From Trichormus variabilis 0441 (GTDB taxonomy: Bacteria; Cyanobacteriota; Cyanobacteriia; Cyanobacteriales; Nostocaceae), in assembly GCF_009856605.1 (NCBI RefSeq), contig NZ_CP047242.1, forward strand, positions 1,548,001 through 1,612,000: a stretch of 64,000 nt of DNA. Reading direction: 5' to 3'. This document shows positions 35,486-58,609 of the stretch, piece by piece; within the stretch, counting starts at the first letter, position 1; the number at the start of each line of letters is the position of its first letter. A model generated the notes under the pieces. That model searched no databases, had not been told where the DNA came from, and saw only the letters and a program-made list of their open reading frames with translations. A program made the position numbers and the translations under genes.

Positions 35486-35496
35486 GACGTGAGAAA

Positions 35497-35622
35497 TTAA
35501 GTTGTGGGGGTGTACTCACAAAATCGCTCCCATAACCCACGGAGAAAAACTACAGGCTTTTTTAGTTGTGAAAGACACTCAATTGTCTTGTTGCAATTTT
35601 GTACTTGAGCATCATTTCTCAT
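35497..35622 (-). pseudogene. Remnant of the 3' end of a second STAND/TPR gene
   Basis: Translating from an ATG at 35622 gives 41 residues containing NDAQVQNCNKTIECLSQLKK and PVVFLRGLW. This matches the end of the STAND gene at 36579 (DANVQNCNDAIERLSQPQTP, VVTRRGFW). The DNA similarity is plain as well: ACTACAGGC, GAAAGAC, CTCAATTG, GTTGCAATT and GCATCA are shared in the same order with 36650-36720. Everything upstream of this tail is missing, replaced by the repeat at 35626. I read it as the stump of a lost paralogue, 12 bp from the alaS stop. The 41-aa frame is not expected to be a functional gene. Confidence 0.75.
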
Positions 35623-35625
35623 GAC

Positions 35626-35785
35626 TTAACTTGAGTTCGACGGAACCTAACCCCAACCCCTTCCCTACAAGGGAAGGCTGCTCAAAATCTATAACTGAGT
35701 ACAAATAATGAAGGTTTTAAGCCTCTCCCCGACGCGGGGAGAGGTTTGGAGAGGGGTTCTTCCCAATTTATCGAACTCACGTTAA
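35626..35785. repeat. 160-bp dispersed MITE-like repeat, copy 1
   Basis: Terminal inverted repeats TTAACTTGAGTTCGA (35626-35640) and TCGAACTCACGTTAA (35771-35785), 14 of 15 complementary. Inside are two hairpins: AACCCCTTCCCT/AAGGGAAGG and CCTCTCCCCGACGCGGGGAGAGG. It is inverted relative to 58449-58609. It is inserted between the STAND remnant and the HNH gene. Confidence 0.85.
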
Positions 35786-35800
35786 CTTAATATTGAATGC

Positions 35801-36250
35801 TTAACTTATTTCTTCGATTGGATCTTCTGGCGGAGGATGGCGGTTAACTACTTTGTCAGCCGCACGAATATTCACAATTCTTTCTCGGTTTAAATTTAGC
35901 GCCGCTATTGTTGCTTTGCCAGTCGGTGTTAACCCATTAATTTTTAGTTTATCGGCAGACCAAATAAAATGCTCACTCCAAAGGCTTTGTCTTGGATTAA
36001 ATAATGGAACTTCTAAACCAGATTCAGGATCTAAAGCTGTGGTTTTGGCTGACTTTCTACGGTTGCAATGAAAACAAGCTAAAGCCAAATTCTCTATAGT
36101 ATCTTCACCGTTTTGACTTAAGGGAATAATATGATCCACCGTAAATAATACATACTGCCATTTTTCAGAGGCGTGGCAATATTCACATAATTCAGAGGCT
36201 CGTTGACGTATTTGTTGCTGAATTGCATCGGAAATTTTACGACTAGCCAC
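35801..36250 (-). CDS. HNH endonuclease
   Basis: 149 aa, start GTG 36250. The beta-beta-alpha-metal core is complete: CEYC (residues 19-22), YVLFTVDHIIPLSQNGEDTIENL (catalytic D-H, about 38-39) and CFHCNRRKS (CxxC with the final N/R). Zinc is held by the two CxxC pairs; the His-Asn-His residues should cut DNA. The C-terminal part (PRQSLWSEHFIWSADKLKINGLTPTGKATI) is typical of stand-alone HNH proteins of cyanobacteria. It follows the 88-aa gene by 15 bp and the STAND gene in the same direction, so it may be the effector of that cluster. A homing or restriction-type HNH unrelated to the neighbours is the alternative. Confidence 0.88.
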   Translation of the reverse strand: MASRKISDAIQQQIRQRASELCEYCHASEKWQYVLFTVDHIIPLSQNGEDTIENLALACFHCNRRKSAKTTALDPESGLEVPLFNPRQSLWSEHFIWSADKLKINGLTPTGKATIAALNLNRERIVNIRAADKVVNRHPPPEDPIEEIS

Positions 36251-36265
36251 ATTTATATAATCTGG

Positions 36266-36532
36266 TTATTGGGGGTTTTGTAAAAGATTGCGAGCTATAC
36301 GATTGAGAAAACTCAGGTAGTCGTCAATTTCTTCGTAGCTATCTAGTTCTTGTTCTTCTTCGGGTGTGAGTGGAGAAATTAGTTGTTTGGCTAGTAAAAC
36401 TTCAATGCGGTTTTGGACAATATTAGAAGCCCTAAATATAGGTATTCCCGCTTGTAACTCAATGCTGATTACACCCTCTAAAGGTAAGTTAGCGGGTAGG
36501 TTTTGAAGCTTTGGCAGCAATGGAGTTGTCAT
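36266..36532 (-). CDS. Small acidic protein upstream of the HNH gene, unknown function
   Basis: 88 aa from ATG 36532 (MTTPLLPKLQNLPANLPLEG). The frame is open further upstream to 36640, but that part is the STAND gene's end read in another frame and is Gly/Cys-rich noise. The protein is acidic in its second half (LTPEEEQELDSYEEIDDYLSFLNRIARNLL), with one predicted helix pair and no membrane segment. It lies 46 bp after the STAND stop and 15 bp before the HNH start. Size and position recall an antitoxin or immunity partner of the nuclease, but no antitoxin fold can be named. Confidence 0.7.
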   Translation of the reverse strand: MTTPLLPKLQNLPANLPLEGVISIELQAGIPIFRASNIVQNRIEVLLAKQLISPLTPEEEQELDSYEEIDDYLSFLNRIARNLLQNPQ

Positions 36533-36578
36533 AGTTAATTCTATGAAATGTTGTGATTGATTATAGCTTATATCTTGT

Positions 36579-38648
36579 TTACCGCCGGAACCAAGAGTGA
36601 AGCCAACGCCACAACCGCCGCAACCACGCCCAAAAACCACGGCGAGTAACTACAGGCGTTTGTGGTTGAGAAAGACGCTCAATTGCATCGTTGCAATTCT
36701 GCACATTGGCATCAAGTCCCATTTTTTGATAAAGTTCGCGTGCATTGCGATAAGCACCAAGCGCGTCTGATTCTCGGTTGACGTTTTCTAATGTCAAACC
36801 TAAATTAAACCAGGCTATTGCTTCCCCTCGAATATCGCCTATTTCTTTTGCTATTTCCAAAGACTGCTGGTAGAACTCAATCGCCCGTTGGTATTGCTCT
36901 AAGTAATAATGAGCAAGGCCTAAATTACTTAAAAATGAGCATTTTACATTGCGATCATTAGATATTACTAAAGACTGCTGGAAGAACTTTATTGCCCGTT
37001 GGTACTGCCCTAAAGATAAGTACACAAGACCCAAATTACCTAAAGATTTGCTTTCTGCATCACGGTCGCCAATCTTTCTAAATATTTCCCAAGACTTTTT
37101 GTAGAACTCAATTGCTGCTTGGTACTGTTTTAGACATAAGTAAATATTTCCCAAATTAGCTAAGGATTTGCCTTCTGTTGTTTTGTGATCACTTATTTCC
37201 CTAGATATTGTCAAAGACTGTTCGTAGAATTCGATTGCACTGTGATACTGCCCCTGTAATATGTAAGCATTACCCAACCCTGTTAAGGAAGCATTCTCCC
37301 AGAAGAGATCGCCTACCTGCCTAGATACTGTCAAAGACTGTTGAAAGAAAAAAATTGCCTGTGGGTAATATCCCAGAGAGTTGTAAGCATTGCCTAACGA
37401 AGTGAGAGTCGCTCGATAATTCCTGTTTTCGCTCTTGCCAGTTTTATTCCATGCTTGTACTAATTGCTCATATAAATCAACTTGGACAGTGTAATAGCCC
37501 CGCAAGCTCAAAAAATAATCGCAAAATTTTAATATATCAAATGCTGAGTCATAATTTTCTAGTTGAAACCAGTGATAAAAAACTTCTAGATATTCTTTGA
37601 TATCATCTTTAGTCTGCCAAGGTTTTTGTTTAAAATTCAAAAGATAGTAATTAATAGCTCGTTGATGCGCCTCACTTTGATCACCAGCTTTATAACGCAC
37701 ATATTCCAACACCACAGGCTGAAACCCAAATTGCCGCTTACCATTGAGTTTTTCTACCAGCAAAGAACGCTTAACGATATTCCTTAATTCTCTCTCAATC
37801 TCTGGTGCTGAACTTCCCGGCAACATCGCTACGGCTGCTGCACTGTCAACCGCAACACGATAAACACTAATATTCAGCAATAACGCTTTTTGCAGTTCAC
37901 TCAATCTATTAAAACTGGCATCCAATACCAACACCATCCCCACATTTTCCCGGCGATGCACACCTACTACTTGGGCATCTGTCAACAACTGCTGCAAATT
38001 CCCTAAGCCTAAATCTGCTAATCTGCTTAAATTCGGGTCTTGTGAATATTCTTCTTTTAATAAATCTGCTACCAATCTCAACAATAGGGGATGCCCATCT
38101 ACTAACTTGACAAACTCCCCTAAATCCCCTTTAATACCCAATGCTGTTAATAGTGCTACCCCTTCATCTACTTGTAAACCCTTCAGGGATAGCCACTCAA
38201 AGCCTTTTAATTCCGGTCTTTCCCTGGTGGTAACTAACACCTTACTATTACCGCCAGATTCCACCCATGTTTGGAAAAAGTCGCCGTAAAATAAACTTCC
38301 CCACTGTCTATCAGGTTGTAATAAGCTTTCCAGGTTGTCAATAATCAGTAAAAATTGCCCAGAACGCAAGCACCTAACTAACGCCTCCACTAACTGCGTT
38401 TCTTGTTCTGGTACATAAAAGCCAAATTCTGTTAATACTTCTCTGGCTAAATCGCTAAAACTTGCACCGTTACTGACATCAGCCCAAAATCGCTTGGGGA
38501 AACCCGCAATTTCATCATAAATCTTTGTCGCCAGCGTTGATTTACCCGTGCCACCGATGCCTTCTATACCAATTAAAAAGGTATCATCATCACTTAACCA
38601 TTGCTGTATTTGAGCGTATTCTGTTTTTCGTCCTTGCCAGTAAGCCAA
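36579..38648 (-). CDS. NB-ARC/STAND NTPase with TPR repeats (NLR-like)
   Basis: 689 aa if begun at TTG 38648. The NB-ARC module (about 20-330) has Walker A GIGGTGKST (30-38), Walker B FLLIIDNLESLL (Asp 104), a sensor VLVTTRERPE, and GHPLLLRLVADLL like the plant GLPLA motif. Six or more TPR units follow (about 400-645; repeated GNxYxxLxQYxxAIEFYxQSL), probably for target recognition. The tail RGFWAWLRRLWRWLHSWFRR is Trp/Arg-rich. The frame is open another ~37 codons upstream to a TGA but contains no ATG/GTG there, so the real start is unclear. It overlaps the region of the small helical gene upstream and is followed by the 88-aa and HNH genes. Such proteins switch on by nucleotide-driven oligomerisation; the function here is inferred. 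Confidence 0.88.
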   Translation of the reverse strand: MAYWQGRKTEYAQIQQWLSDDDTFLIGIEGIGGTGKSTLATKIYDEIAGFPKRFWADVSNGASFSDLAREVLTEFGFYVPEQETQLVEALVRCLRSGQFLLIIDNLESLLQPDRQWGSLFYGDFFQTWVESGGNSKVLVTTRERPELKGFEWLSLKGLQVDEGVALLTALGIKGDLGEFVKLVDGHPLLLRLVADLLKEEYSQDPNLSRLADLGLGNLQQLLTDAQVVGVHRRENVGMVLVLDASFNRLSELQKALLLNISVYRVAVDSAAAVAMLPGSSAPEIERELRNIVKRSLLVEKLNGKRQFGFQPVVLEYVRYKAGDQSEAHQRAINYYLLNFKQKPWQTKDDIKEYLEVFYHWFQLENYDSAFDILKFCDYFLSLRGYYTVQVDLYEQLVQAWNKTGKSENRNYRATLTSLGNAYNSLGYYPQAIFFFQQSLTVSRQVGDLFWENASLTGLGNAYILQGQYHSAIEFYEQSLTISREISDHKTTEGKSLANLGNIYLCLKQYQAAIEFYKKSWEIFRKIGDRDAESKSLGNLGLVYLSLGQYQRAIKFFQQSLVISNDRNVKCSFLSNLGLAHYYLEQYQRAIEFYQQSLEIAKEIGDIRGEAIAWFNLGLTLENVNRESDALGAYRNARELYQKMGLDANVQNCNDAIERLSQPQTPVVTRRGFWAWLRRLWRWLHSWFRR

Positions 38649-38752
38649 ACTTTTACCTGGATTCCCCGCTTTGAGAACCCCCGGCGATTCTGCCTTGGTA
38701 CTGCTTTCTAATAAAGTTAAGATTTCCTCCTGTTGAGCAGTAATAATATTAA

Positions 38753-39184
38753 TTACTTTGGGTTGTCGTACCTCCTCAAATCATAGGTAGGATTATTAAC
38801 GTTACCGGCTGTATTTATCTGTATACTTTCACCATAAGCTTGAGCATTGAGATTAACAGAACTATCATTAGATTTTGTTGCTTGCAAAATCTGGGCTATT
38901 TCCTCAGCCAGTGTTGTATCAGCATCCAAAATTTTCTTGAGTTGCACCCGCAGACTTGCTTGTAAATCCTCATCCTCTGGCTTTTGTGCTACATCCGCCG
39001 CCGCTTCTTTGGCGGCTTCCTTAGCCTCTACTTTTGGCTGTAGCTTACCCCAAATAGCCTTGGCTTTATCCCAACCATCTGCACCAGCTTGTTGATATGC
39101 ACCTTCGGCAACTTTACTACCCACATTCAGCAGAGATGGCAGATAGGGTGCAAGAAATGTAACGATTGAGGCGATATCTATCAT
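38753..39184 (-). CDS. Small helical protein preceding the STAND gene (putative adaptor)
   Basis: 143 aa, ATG 39184. The N-terminus MIDIASIVTFLAPYLPSLLN is a hydrophobic helix. A Lys/Glu/Ala-rich segment follows (AKAIWGKLQPKVEAKEAAKE), then an amphipathic pair (LQASLRVQLKKILDADTTLA) and an Asn-rich C-terminus (NDSSVNLNAQAYGESIQINT). I have seen this pattern in front of STAND/TPR proteins in Nostoc and actinobacteria, where it is thought to act as a membrane-associated or homotypic adaptor, but no activity is established. Its final codons overlap the open frame of the STAND gene (AAGTAATTAAT), implying translational coupling. Confidence 0.75.
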   Translation of the reverse strand: MIDIASIVTFLAPYLPSLLNVGSKVAEGAYQQAGADGWDKAKAIWGKLQPKVEAKEAAKEAAADVAQKPEDEDLQASLRVQLKKILDADTTLAEEIAQILQATKSNDSSVNLNAQAYGESIQINTAGNVNNPTYDLRRYDNPK

Positions 39185-39312
39185 TGTGAGAACTTATACA
39201 ATACGTTTGTAACTGTTAGGTGGGATCTTAGCGTATTTACTTAGGTGTGAAAAGTAATGTAGCAGTTTGTAGTTGAGTCAAATACAGACCTAACCCCCAG
39301 CCCCTTCCCTAC
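39185..39312. promoter_or_regulatory. Probable promoter region of the STAND cluster
   Basis: These 128 bp lie between the first cluster gene and the IS630 element. On the minus strand TGTATAAG about 15 bp before the ATG could be a -10-type box; no good -35 is seen. At 39285-39312 begins the dispersed-repeat sequence (CCTAACCCCCAGCCCCTTCC) into which the IS is inserted. Confidence 0.35.
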
Positions 39313-39327
39313 ATGGAAGTTAAGGAA

Positions 39328-40170
39328 TTATGTCGGTAATAAGCCAACGTAGTGGAGGAGGTCTAAAGACCCTTGACGGAACTGTTCAAGGAAATCGGCC
39401 ACTCGTTGTTTGAGTGTATTCCAATCGTCGCTCAAACGATGTAAATGAATTACCTGTTGCCTTAACCAGCGCCAAAGCTTTTCAATCGGGTTGAGCCAAG
39501 GGGCATAAGTGGGCAAGTTGAGCAGGGTAATCGGTAATGGGTCGCTGGAGCGTTCTGGCATCTTCAACTGAGACCAACTGTTGGGTAATTTGGGGGAATA
39601 AGCAAAGTCCTGCGCTTGCAACTGAGCCAGTAGATTAGGGTGAAAATGCACTGGCCAGTTATCCTCCACAACATAAATTTGTTCCACCGTGGGATAATCC
39701 GCTCGAATCATGCCATAAAACTTGGACAGTACCGAGACACTGATTTGGGATCGCAACAAGTACGTTAGTTGTCCGCTCAGTGGATTGAGCGCGCCAATAC
39801 CCCGATAGCATGTGTCGCTTTTGTGAGAGCGACGGGCTAAGGGTTGAGAGGAACCCACTGCTTCCCAGTCTGGCGCTAAACTCGGCTGACGATAGAACCC
39901 AAACTCATCGAGATAGACTAGGACATAGCGTTGTGGGTCATACCAAGCTCGCAATAAGGCTAACTCAATTTGACTGCACTTGTCCTCATAGAAACGATCT
40001 GGGCTATGCACATAGTCTCGCCCTCGCTTATAACTGATACCCAGACGTTCTAGCAGTTGCGATAAGCCCGCTTTGGTTGTGACTCGCAGCCACCGACAGC
40101 AATCAGCGAGCGCTTGCAAACTCCACCGACTTTGAGCATATCCCAACACTTGCGGGTCACGCCGAACCAC
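39328..40170 (-). CDS. IS630 transposase, catalytic DDE part (downstream frame)
   Basis: 280 aa as an isolated frame; it normally continues from the 40205-40489 frame by a frameshift. DDE residues: Asp in LVYLDEFGFYRQ, Asp in VVEDNWPVHFHP, Glu in NPIEKLWRWLRQQ, all present, so it is potentially active. The upstream part (QALADCCRWL, SQLLERLGISYKRGRDY) holds a second HTH typical of IS630 proteins. The stop lies inside the terminal inverted repeat. The in-frame Met at 40170 is probably not a real start. A 75-aa frame on the other strand is a shadow. Confidence 0.88.
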   Translation of the reverse strand: MVRRDPQVLGYAQSRWSLQALADCCRWLRVTTKAGLSQLLERLGISYKRGRDYVHSPDRFYEDKCSQIELALLRAWYDPQRYVLVYLDEFGFYRQPSLAPDWEAVGSSQPLARRSHKSDTCYRGIGALNPLSGQLTYLLRSQISVSVLSKFYGMIRADYPTVEQIYVVEDNWPVHFHPNLLAQLQAQDFAYSPKLPNSWSQLKMPERSSDPLPITLLNLPTYAPWLNPIEKLWRWLRQQVIHLHRLSDDWNTLKQRVADFLEQFRQGSLDLLHYVGLLPT

Positions 40171-40204
40171 AGATATAAGTTCCGCTTTGGCTGTAGCGCT
40201 ATCC

Positions 40205-40489
40205 TCACACTGAGGGAAAAAAAGCGGGCTTACGTCCTCGTCCTGAGCGAATCATTAATCCTGCTATCCCTTCGCGCTGATAGCGTTTCACCCATCCATA
40301 TACTGTATCGGGGTCACGAGGTTTCAGTAACCCTGTAGTGGCAACTTGCAATCCAGATTCTCCATCTGCTATTTTCAGTAACCCAGCCGCACGTTCTCGA
40401 ATATACGGACGCGAATCATGATCTCGCGCAAACTCTAATTCATCTTTTTGCTCAGCCTTGAGAGCCAAGCTGATCGGTTTTCGACTCAT
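40205..40489 (-). CDS. IS630 transposase, N-terminal HTH part (upstream frame)
   Basis: 94 aa, ATG 40489 (MSRKPISLALKAEQKDELEF). It contains a helix-turn-helix (GESGLQVATTGLLKPRDPDTVYGWVKRYQ split over two helices) and the typical GRGRKPAFFPSV ending, stopping at TGA. At a run of seven T on the coding strand (40223-40217) removing one T would join it to PQCEDSATAKAEL and the 39328-40170 frame. This suggests slippage that makes a full-length ~380-aa transposase. Confidence 0.85.
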   Translation of the reverse strand: MSRKPISLALKAEQKDELEFARDHDSRPYIRERAAGLLKIADGESGLQVATTGLLKPRDPDTVYGWVKRYQREGIAGLMIRSGRGRKPAFFPSV

Positions 40490-40579
40490 CCTACAAAACC
40501 TGCTGATCTCTCCTCTTCTAAATTACCGAATTATTTTCTTTACTTCCATCAAGGGAAGGGAGTAATACTCAAAGCCTCT

Positions 40580-42415
40580 CTCCTACAAGGATACTGTTGG
40601 CGAATTATTGAAGGGTTAAGCCCCTCAAGAGTTTGGAACAGTGGAAAAAAGAGAATAAGTATATTGAGCGTAGCATCTACAAAGATTATGACCCTGCACC
40701 CGCGTGATATGTCGCAGATTCCTGAAACAACAGCGCAAGTAGCCCGGAATTCATTTCCCAAAGGGAACATATATATGAAGATGCGGGATGAAATAGGAGT
40801 GTTATATAAGGATGAGGATTTTGTCAAACTTTACCGCGCAGATTGTGGTCAAAGTGGAATATCAGCAGGACAACTGGCATTAGTGACAGTAATGCAATTT
40901 ATCGAAGGTTTAACGGATAGACAAGCGGCGGATGCAGTGAGGGGTCATATTGATTGGAAATACGCACTATCGTTGGAATTAAATGACCCAGGGTTTGATT
41001 ATTCAGTACTTTCAGAATTTCGTCAGCGATTAATCAAAGCAGGACGAGAGCGAGAGTTACTCAACCAAATGCTAGCTCGTTTCCAAGAACTAGGTTGGCT
41101 CAAAAATCGCGGCCGTGTCAGAACTGATTCAACTCACGTATTAGCCGCAGTACGACAGTTAAATCGTTTGGAATTAGTGGGAGAAACTTTACGTCATACC
41201 TTAAATGACTTGGCTTATTTTGCCCCTGATTGGCTCAAATCGAGAGTTGACGTTGATTGGTTTGAACGTTACTCCCTGAGATTTGAGCAATACCGCTTGC
41301 CCAAATCAAAAGCCGAACGTGAGAAATTGAGGCGAAAAATTGGTGAGGATGGTCATCATTTGCTATCCGCTTTGTATGCAGACTCAACTTGTAATTGGCT
41401 GTGGCAGATTCCATCAGTGGAAACATTACGTATAGTTTGGGTGCAACAATACTATATTCAATTGCAACAAGTCTATTGGCGAGAACAAGATAACTTACCA
41501 CCAAATAGACTACAGATTGAATCTCCTTACGATGTTGATGCACGCAATTCCAGCAAGCGAGAAATCAACTGGACTGGTTATAATCTGCATCTGACAGAAA
41601 TTTGTCACCCCATACTGCCAAACTTAATTATCAATGTGGAAACGTCCGTGGCCACAAGTGCGGATGTTGAGATGACACCAGTAATTCATTCTCGTTTAAA
41701 CCAGAACAATCTTTTGCCACAAGAACATGTTGTCGATACTGGCTATGTCAATGCTCAAAACTTAGTCGATAGTCAATCCCATTTTCATGTTGATTTAGTA
41801 GGAAAAGTTCCCCCCGGAACTAGTTGGCAAGCAACAGCACAATCCGGCTTTGAGCAAAATTGCTTCACTATTCATTGGGATTTGATGCGTGTTGATTGCC
41901 CAATGGGTAAACAAAGTAAGTCCTGGCGTACAACTGTCGATAGCCATGACAATCCAGTAGTCAAAATACAATTTGACAAATCCGATTGTTCGCTTTGTTC
42001 AAGTCGCTCAAAATGCACTCGCTCCAAAAAACTACCGCGTCTTCTGACCCTCAAACCACAGGAACTACATCTTGCATTACATGATGCTCGCATTCGCCAA
42101 AAAACTGAATCTTTTCAACAAATTTATCACCAACGTGCTGGCGTTGAAGGCTTGATTTCCCAAGCTACTGGTCGCTACCAATTACGCCGTTGTCGCTACA
42201 TTGGTCTTGCCAAAACTCTCTTGCAGCATGTCATTACTGCTGCTGCTATCAACTTCAGTCGGATGTGGGATTGGTGGCAACATGTCCCACGCAGTCAGAC
42301 TCGCGTTTCTCACTTTGCTCGAATTGCTCCCACTGCCTCATAGTATTCCTGATTTTCTATTTTGTGATGATTGGTTTTGCCCTCTATCAATTCGCCAACA
42401 GTATCCTTGTAGGAG
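40580..42415 (+). mobile_element. IS1182-family insertion sequence
   Basis: 1836 bp with perfect 27-bp terminal inverted repeats (40580-40606 and 42389-42415; core CTACAAGGATACTGTTGGCG). It contains one transposase gene. The left flank AAAGCCTCTCTC and right flank GAGGTTTGGAGAGAGGTC are the two arms of the second hairpin of the 160-bp repeat, so this element also sits at a hairpin tip. It lies 30 bp from the IS630 element. Perfect ends suggest recent insertion. Confidence 0.9.
40688..42343 (+). CDS. IS1182-family transposase
   Basis: 551 aa from ATG 40688 (MTLHPRDMSQIPETTAQVAR). The frame is open back to 40448, but that stretch crosses the left inverted repeat and the neighbouring IS end, so it is not coding. 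Family features: the N-terminal DUF772-type domain (SAGQLALVTVMQFIEGLTDRQAADAVRGH), the first catalytic Asp in GRVRTDSTHVLAAVR, the second in VVDTGYVNAQNL, the Cys-rich zinc-like CSLCSSRSKCTRS, and the C-terminal Glu in QRAGVEGLISQATGRYQLRR. No frameshift or stop is seen, so it is probably active. HIP1 sites are absent. Confidence 0.92.
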   Translation: MTLHPRDMSQIPETTAQVARNSFPKGNIYMKMRDEIGVLYKDEDFVKLYRADCGQSGISAGQLALVTVMQFIEGLTDRQAADAVRGHIDWKYALSLELNDPGFDYSVLSEFRQRLIKAGRERELLNQMLARFQELGWLKNRGRVRTDSTHVLAAVRQLNRLELVGETLRHTLNDLAYFAPDWLKSRVDVDWFERYSLRFEQYRLPKSKAEREKLRRKIGEDGHHLLSALYADSTCNWLWQIPSVETLRIVWVQQYYIQLQQVYWREQDNLPPNRLQIESPYDVDARNSSKREINWTGYNLHLTEICHPILPNLIINVETSVATSADVEMTPVIHSRLNQNNLLPQEHVVDTGYVNAQNLVDSQSHFHVDLVGKVPPGTSWQATAQSGFEQNCFTIHWDLMRVDCPMGKQSKSWRTTVDSHDNPVVKIQFDKSDCSLCSSRSKCTRSKKLPRLLTLKPQELHLALHDARIRQKTESFQQIYHQRAGVEGLISQATGRYQLRRCRYIGLAKTLLQHVITAAAINFSRMWDWWQHVPRSQTRVSHFARIAPTAS

Positions 42416-58362: not shown

Positions 58363-58448
58363 TATATTCGCTAATTTGTTGTCATCTACCAACCTTTTGC
58401 GTAAAAAGTTGGTAGATTATTATTTGAAGCCAAAATGAGGAATCTTAA

Positions 58449-58609
58449 TTAACGTGAGTTCGATAAATTCGGAAGAACCCCTCTCCAAACCTCTCCCCGA
58501 CGCGGAGAGAGGCTTAAAACTCTGATTCTTTGATACTCAGTTATAGATTTTCAGCCCCTTCCCTTGTAGGGAAGGGGTTGGGGTTAGGTTCCGTCGAACT
58601 CACGTTTAA
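58449..58609. repeat. 160-bp dispersed MITE-like repeat, copy 2
   Basis: TTAACGTGAGTTCGA (58449-58463) and TCGAACTCACGTT (58594-58606) end an element that is the reverse complement of 35626-35785. The two inner hairpins are retained (CCTCTCCCCGACGCGGAGAGAGG and CCCCTTCCCTTGTAGGGAAGGGG). It lies 80 bp upstream of modBC. Confidence 0.88.

Follow-up and report, generated by a model that had tools for sequence, protein, structure and literature searches.

In the BELL/BASS–NLR pairs of filamentous bacteria, a small helical and presumably membrane-targeting effector ends in an amyloid motif, the NLR repeats this motif at its N-terminus, and CHAT is an occasional partner (PMC7889193, in the text available). 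The same text describes the fungal pairs HELLP/PNT1 and HET-S/NWD2, in which an NLR (for PNT1, NB-ARC plus TPR) templates a motif that it shares with a membrane-targeting partner and so activates this partner. The NTP-dependent conflict systems of multicellular bacteria, many of them cyanobacterial, combine STAND NTPases with adaptor and effector modules (available parts of PMC7159879 and PMC8195603). A different set of genes uses −1 frameshifting: at the sites of dnaX and of insertion sequence (IS) transposases, the ribosome slips on an X_XXY_YYZ heptamer, partly with a Shine–Dalgarno (SD)-like element 5′ of it and with a stem 3′ of it; in some dnaX genes the 0-frame stop comes right after the slip site, and in IS elements an upstream small open reading frame (ORF) is fused to the downstream one (PMC5009743, in the part available). 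Here we describe a locus that resembles each of these systems, at positions 35,801 to 39,184 of a 64,000-nucleotide (nt) stretch of the 7.1 Mb genome of the filamentous cyanobacterium Trichormus variabilis 0441 (contig NZ_CP047242.1, positions 1,548,001 to 1,612,000; this whole stretch is hereafter the window). A small protein, p143, is followed on the minus strand by an NB-ARC STAND NTPase with TPRs (the receptor), and we consider it probable that programmed −1 frameshifting joins the two, the products being free p143 and a p143–receptor fusion.

As in the BELL/BASS–NLR pairs, a small protein with a hydrophobic segment and a C-terminal motif adjoins an NB-ARC/TPR receptor, CHAT variants occur, and sister loci with two genes bear the matching motif on both proteins; unlike the NLRs of those pairs as the available text of PMC7889193 presents them, the frameshift receptor has neither a motif of its own nor a nearby start and would be made as a p143 fusion. 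HELLP/PNT1 and HET-S/NWD2 are described there as separate genes, whereas one message and a covalent link are proposed here, with amyloid behaviour putative. In contrast to the dnaX and IS sites covered by the available part of PMC5009743, this site would serve a putative immune receptor, with the effector presumably as the short product and the effector-bearing receptor as the long one. The word 'frameshift' is absent from the available text of PMC7889193, PMC8086366 and PMC12261475 and from the main texts of PMC8195603 and PMC7159879, and in the open-licence literature we found no paper joining ribosomal frameshifting with NB-ARC, NLR or anti-phage defence.

The initial annotation of this DNA described an NB-ARC protein with a Walker A motif and TPRs, which is confirmed by Pfam (NB-ARC 2e-13, TPR_12 1.9e-41) and by a readable GIEGIGGTGKS; what it missed is that the receptor frame contains no ATG, GTG or TTG before 38648. 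In the mechanical ORF list the receptor begins at TTG 38648, but the conserved coding sequence extends up to the p143 stop, where a −1 slip at C_CCA_AAG leads directly to GTA ATT AAT ATT... in the receptor frame. This heptamer is called 'highly shift-prone' in E. coli (PMC5009743, in the part available). Relatives of p143 were found in 74 of 217 Nostocaceae genomes, with 91 matches; 53 of these were opened, and the other 38, nearly all weaker, were covered by a junction-profile search alone, the strict filters of which can lose weak matches. Frameshift-type loci were chosen solely by a receptor match less than 60 nt from the p143 stop, without using the heptamer. The receptor is in the −1 frame in all 49 records that pass this rule, and these end in CCCAAAGTAA (47/49) or AAAAAAGTAA (2/49). 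After 27 records with identical junctions were dropped, 22 distinct junctions in 21 genomes were kept; L119/L174 was left out, its p143 being a fragment at a contig end. A slip heptamer of the form X_XXY_YYZ, in 0-frame phase and abutting the TAA, is present in 22/22 loci, as C_CCA_AAG in 21 and as A_AAA_AAG, the E. coli dnaX site (PMC5009743, same part), in L073, and the bases flanking it on either side differ among the loci. The sole change leads to another slip heptamer.

Upstream of the heptamer, the −1 frame has no ATG, GTG or TTG in any of the 22 loci; the open stretch there is 0–21 nt, and in eight loci a −1-frame stop lies immediately 5′ of the heptamer (0 nt open). The first canonical start 3′ of the site is found at +41 to +188, at +107 or later in six loci, and directly before the P-loop in L073. 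The receptor frame is open for 656–1496 codons in 19/22 loci, and two of the remaining three reach a contig end. Of 259 p143 homologues (with that of the window among them) 120 are listed; the C-terminus is PK or KK in 57 of these (KK in four), of the two-gene type in 37, and different or cut short in 26. One homologue, 81% identical, ends in NSPK, as known from its protein. The homologues P0044, P0059 and P0092, likewise known from protein, end in NEKK, which is compatible with A_AAA_AAG as in L073 (P0042). Those relatives of p143 that carry names are mostly from Nostoc, Anabaena and other Nostocaceae. The junction profile returned from the 217 genomes its 22 source loci and, as weak matches, five two-gene receptors without the heptamer, and the distant relatives of p143 from beyond the family (26 of 29 loci) include no frameshift case.

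The combination of traits seen at this junction was rare in a control set made up of the window and 67 loci not of the frameshift type (577,230 nt, partly overlapping). Of the 442 mechanically called ORFs that begin with ATG and span 80 codons or more, six end in XXXYYYZ and nine have a −1 frame open for at least 600 nt from their end; both traits are combined in one, which is the window's p143. The receptor frame is under purifying selection, with a ratio of non-synonymous to synonymous divergence (dN/dS) of 0.38 over alignment columns 3–45 and of 0.20 and 0.18 farther down. Furthermore, of 64 intervals scanned for synonymous divergence, the three that immediately follow the slip site on its 3′ side have the lowest values (0.15, 0.10 and 0.22; median 0.40), and non-synonymous divergence there is not lower (about 0.17), so that recent spread alone does not explain the dip. 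Two-gene receptors show no comparable dip, with synonymous divergence of 0.41–0.60 in the first 16 intervals.

As many as 21 further distinct loci have p143 and the receptor as two genes (L147, being the L080 locus, was dropped from this set). In these, p143 mostly ends in ...Q(V/I)GK... plus a short tail, the receptor start lies 46–855 nt past the p143 stop, and a canonical start is present in 21/21 (20 ATG and one TTG by the first-start rule). The receptor N-terminus aligns with the p143 C-terminus in all 21, a fit equalled by no more than 5 of 500 shuffles; the matched motif is found on the receptor as a separate ORF in 0/22 frameshift loci, the window included. We infer that the frameshift receptor would gain both the motif and a helical domain through its fusion to p143. 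Between the layouts, identity reaches 98% in the N-terminal 100 residues of p143 and 96% in the NB-ARC domain. The NB-ARC tree is poorly resolved over much of its extent and has the layouts intermixed, with 14 changes, at least six of them forced by well-supported branches; the layout labels cluster no more than when they are shuffled. We had considered that the frameshift loci might share one origin, which is thus not supported; given the mixed layouts, the junction seems to have been swapped between loci or to have arisen several times. Judged from the sequences, the same protein pair occurs as two motif-matched genes or as a single gene that contains a slip site.

Homologues of p143 adjoin or are fused with NB-ARC, nSTAND1 or CHAT proteins, which agrees with the STAND/NLR-type character that the initial annotation gave to p143 and the receptor. 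By Pfam, p143 stands in front of CHAT in L007, and CHAT is fused to the same NB-ARC lineage in L172; the order CHAT-like–p143–motif was seen by eye in L137 and L138. In L013, L015, L026 and others, other STAND-type receptors follow p143-like genes from different families; by eye, gene product and receptor N-terminus seem to have in common a repeat of the G-Q-x-I-G-x-M type, so that these too are likely motif-matched pairs. In L022 (G072, minus strand), a distant p143-like gene (weak match, 7e-4) is followed by an in-frame TGA and then by a STAND frame in the same phase that has no ATG, GTG or TTG for 51 codons, the result of readthrough, decay or chance.

In the proposed mechanism, in-frame reading of C_CCA_AAG_TAA would lead to the stop and to release of p143, putatively a BELL-like helical domain whose C-terminus holds a self-assembly motif. 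Some of the ribosomes would slip one base back (CCA-AAG to CCC-AAA) and continue with GTA-ATT-AAT..., making a p143–NB-ARC–TPR fusion of 868 amino acids. The signalling steps downstream of these two products are a matter on which we hold about even odds: the TPRs would sense a ligand and the NB-ARC domain would oligomerise, the clustered p143 parts would seed assembly of free p143, and this assembly would act on the membrane, killing or arresting the infected cell. The efficiency of the slip would set the receptor:effector ratio and keep both always cognate, and in the two-gene sister loci an equal task would fall to separate genes with matching motifs. On balance, we lean towards a wider proposal, that the receptor is made only via the −1 frameshift, that this layout has been repeatedly swapped with the two-gene, motif-matched form, and that the slip site, by making the pair cognate in itself, is an alternative to co-evolving amyloid motifs.

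The receptor may also be placed at the membrane by its own C-terminus, a conserved Trp/Arg-rich amphipathic tail that in the window reads RRGFWAWLRRLWRWLHSWFRR (36582–36650, minus strand) and would be a possible anchor. Such a tail is present in the window and in 17 of 28 rows (L060, L091, L094, L095, L098, L099, L106, L108, L109, L110, L121, L122, L129, L130, L132, L135 and L136), several other rows being masked or cut short, and a hydrophobic segment replaces it in three rows (L090, L092 and L118). The p143-type proteins have a hydrophobic N-terminus in both cases tried, with a maximum KD19 of 1.6 and 2.0.

If the proposed frameshift is real, a recoding signal would decide whether, and in what dose, an immune-type receptor is made, and one gene would yield both a free partner and a receptor bearing that partner. 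Gene calling based on start codons splits such a receptor in two and hides its link to p143, as happened in the ORF list here. Because both layouts occur in nature at a near-identical protein background, they allow a direct test of questions about NLRs, namely the number of receptors that an effector requires and the means by which signalling stays specific.

Candidate stimulators of slippage were found on both sides of the heptamer. A 9-bp stem, S2, is possible in most loci (180 of 190 scorable cells paired, in codon register), and a 7-bp stem, S1, could be interleaved with it as a pseudoknot (137 of 150 cells, same register). In the MAFFT alignment one S2 pair varies (A-U in 11, G-C in five, G-U in five), and the S2 covariation score was reached by 1 of 500 shuffles. 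The window retains a 7-bp stem 13 nt downstream of the heptamer. SD stimulators of −1 shifting are said to lie 9–14 nt 5′ of the site, according to a source available in part, and the AGGAGG of the window, at 8 nt, is just short of this range. An RNA element 3′ of the slip site is likely, with no more than moderate support for a structure, and the exact fold drawn here is a candidate.

Several points weigh against these readings. As to the stimulators, in two of the five rows that show G-U at the varying pair the placement of gaps is uncertain, S2 pairs changed on both sides are no better than shuffles (107/500), the S2 3′ arm codes for a conserved Ser-Thr, and fold z-scores are modest (−0.7 to −2.9 in seven loci folded). 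S1 does not form in the window and pairs poorly in L065, L073 and L078, and an SD-like stretch precedes the heptamer in only 7/22 loci. The spacers after the heptamer are long (9–12 nt for S1 and 19–22 nt for S2, in loci with search strings, and 13 nt for the window stem) and, in contrast to dnaX and IS sites, exceed the usual 5–9 nt, other cases studied having 3 to 11–14 nt (PMC5009743, in the part available). As to the junction itself, the 22 loci share ancestry and the junction may be exchanged in one piece, so they do not amount to 22 independent events; the receptor of L079 ends early, at 327 codons. In the short linker (columns 3–20) dN/dS is about 1, because synonymous divergence is suppressed there. 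Codon conservation of the heptamer was tried as a proof by itself and set aside as weak, since it is not unusual: 13 of 59 conserved p143 columns have a single codon. Finally, p143 has no convincing relative in Pfam, NCBIfam or PDB; its profile matched, among PDB sequences, four designed helical proteins and, weakly, SIL1 (best E 0.0086), and a BELL and amyloid identity is suggested for it by the layout of the locus and by reviews.

Other explanations of the junction must be weighed against frameshifting. Ribosomes could stop at the TAA of p143 and start again at a non-AUG codon close by, such as ATT; this would make the receptor a separate product of ordinary translational coupling. The AGGAGG upstream in the window, the ATT or ATC codons in the linker of the loci inspected, and the ordinary stop–start overlaps of the distant p143 relatives L013, L015 and L026 all fit this explanation. 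However, no fixed start position is seen and the canonical starts are variable or late; the conserved part is the heptamer, with another slip heptamer as its sole variant, the two-gene relatives hold a canonical start throughout, and a receptor begun at the junction would lack the motif in every frameshift locus. We therefore regard re-initiation as unlikely. Slippage during transcription rather than translation could also supply the −1 frame, and the site of L073, with its run of seven A, would suit it; but C_CCA_AAG, the site of the other 21 loci, has just three consecutive A, and we give this explanation next to no weight.

The receptor could instead be a decaying pseudogene that lost its start by deletion, as the receptor remnant and insertion sequences around the window locus and the early end of L079 might indicate. 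Against this, the arrangement is common to 22 distinct loci, nearly all of their receptor frames are long or run into a contig end, and dN/dS is 0.18–0.38 outside the short linker, making decay highly improbable. It is also very unlikely that the locus is a four-gene system of the kind put forward in the initial annotation, with a TPR sensor, an NB-ARC switch, an HNH nuclease as effector and the small protein p88 as partner or immunity factor. All four ORFs are indeed found tightly spaced on the minus strand, with 46 nt between the receptor stop and the p88 start and 15 nt between the p88 stop and the HNH start. Of 25 distinct loci (the window and 24 others) in which the receptor is complete and 1 kb or more of sequence follows it, four have p88 directly behind the receptor (the copy in L122 is broken) and only two, the window included, have p88 with HNH, whereas 21 have no p88 there. 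Seen from the other side, a receptor lies upstream of p88 in 1 of 30 opened p88 loci, and this one is the window; the order-wide sample behind this count has few genomes of the window's family and may understate the link to the receptor. The preferred reading thus remains a p143–receptor pair joined by frameshifting, and the NLR-like character proposed at the outset is supported for this pair and not for a four-gene unit with an HNH effector.

The features of the locus and its flanks are collected in Table 1.

Table 1. Features of the p143–receptor locus and its surroundings, in window positions
Feature	Position	Strand	Remarks
p143, small protein with hydrophobic N-terminus and C-terminal Asn/Gln-rich motif	38756..39184	(-)	0-frame product, stop TAA 38755-38753
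Slip heptamer C_CCA_AAG	38756..38762	(-)	adjoins the 0-frame TAA on its 5′ side; −1 slip would enter the receptor frame
AGGAGG, SD-like	38771..38776	(-)	8 nt 5′ of heptamer
Candidate 3′ stimulator stem	38699..38742	(-)	7 bp, 38742-38736 with 38705-38699; starts 13 nt past heptamer
Receptor reading frame, NB-ARC STAND NTPase, TPRs and Trp/Arg-rich C-terminal tail	36582..38756	(-)	725 codons from GTA after the slip
p88, antitoxin-like small protein	36269..36532	(-)	separate module with HNH
HNH nuclease, p88 partner	35804..36250	(-)	separate module; Pfam HNH 2.2e-17
Receptor 3′-end remnant, 94 nt	35529..35622	(-)	78% identity to 36629-36722
MITE-like repeat, 167 nt	35628-35794		inverted copy, 90% identical, at 58441-58606
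Transposase-like ORF region 1	39328-40489		two ORFs, 280 and 94 amino acids; about 140 nt upstream of p143 start; by eye
Transposase-like ORF region 2	40448-42343		631-amino-acid ORF; by eye

The surroundings are much as first described. The decayed paralogue at the flank corresponds to the receptor 3′-end remnant, the miniature inverted-repeat transposable element (MITE) to the repeat with an inverted copy elsewhere in the window, and the two bounding IS elements to the transposase-like ORF regions, which were recognised by eye alone, without a family search. We take region 1 to be IS630-like and region 2 to be IS1182-like; the former, split over two ORFs, is perhaps itself frameshifted or decayed. 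The cluster was also said to lack HIP1 sites, and none is found in 35486–40170, compared with 60 across the window.

We read p88 and HNH as a self-contained module, perhaps of toxin–antitoxin type, that occasionally settles behind receptor genes. p88 has no convincing family match in Pfam or NCBIfam, and its model, a β hairpin and two helices with a mean pLDDT of 85, is antitoxin-like. Matches to p88 occur in 69 of 148 genomes of the order-wide sample, and in 16 of the 30 loci opened (two of them fragments) HNH starts no more than about 55 nt past p88. The pair recurs widely, mostly with no receptor beside it, and with HNH starting 18 to about 35 nt past the p88 coding end. The four-gene proposal was to fall if p88 and HNH turned out to occur mostly without the STAND gene, and they do; the association nevertheless recurs in L108, where p88 and an HNH, the latter 93% identical to that of the window, stand directly behind the receptor. 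We also considered HNH as PtuB and rejected this, as the best PADLOC match (3.9e-15) and NCBIfam matches far under their cut-offs show an HNH domain only. In L060 (10662–11932), from the same-genus genome G111, PIN-type and small antitoxin-like ORFs, recognised by eye, stand behind a two-gene receptor in place of p88–HNH.

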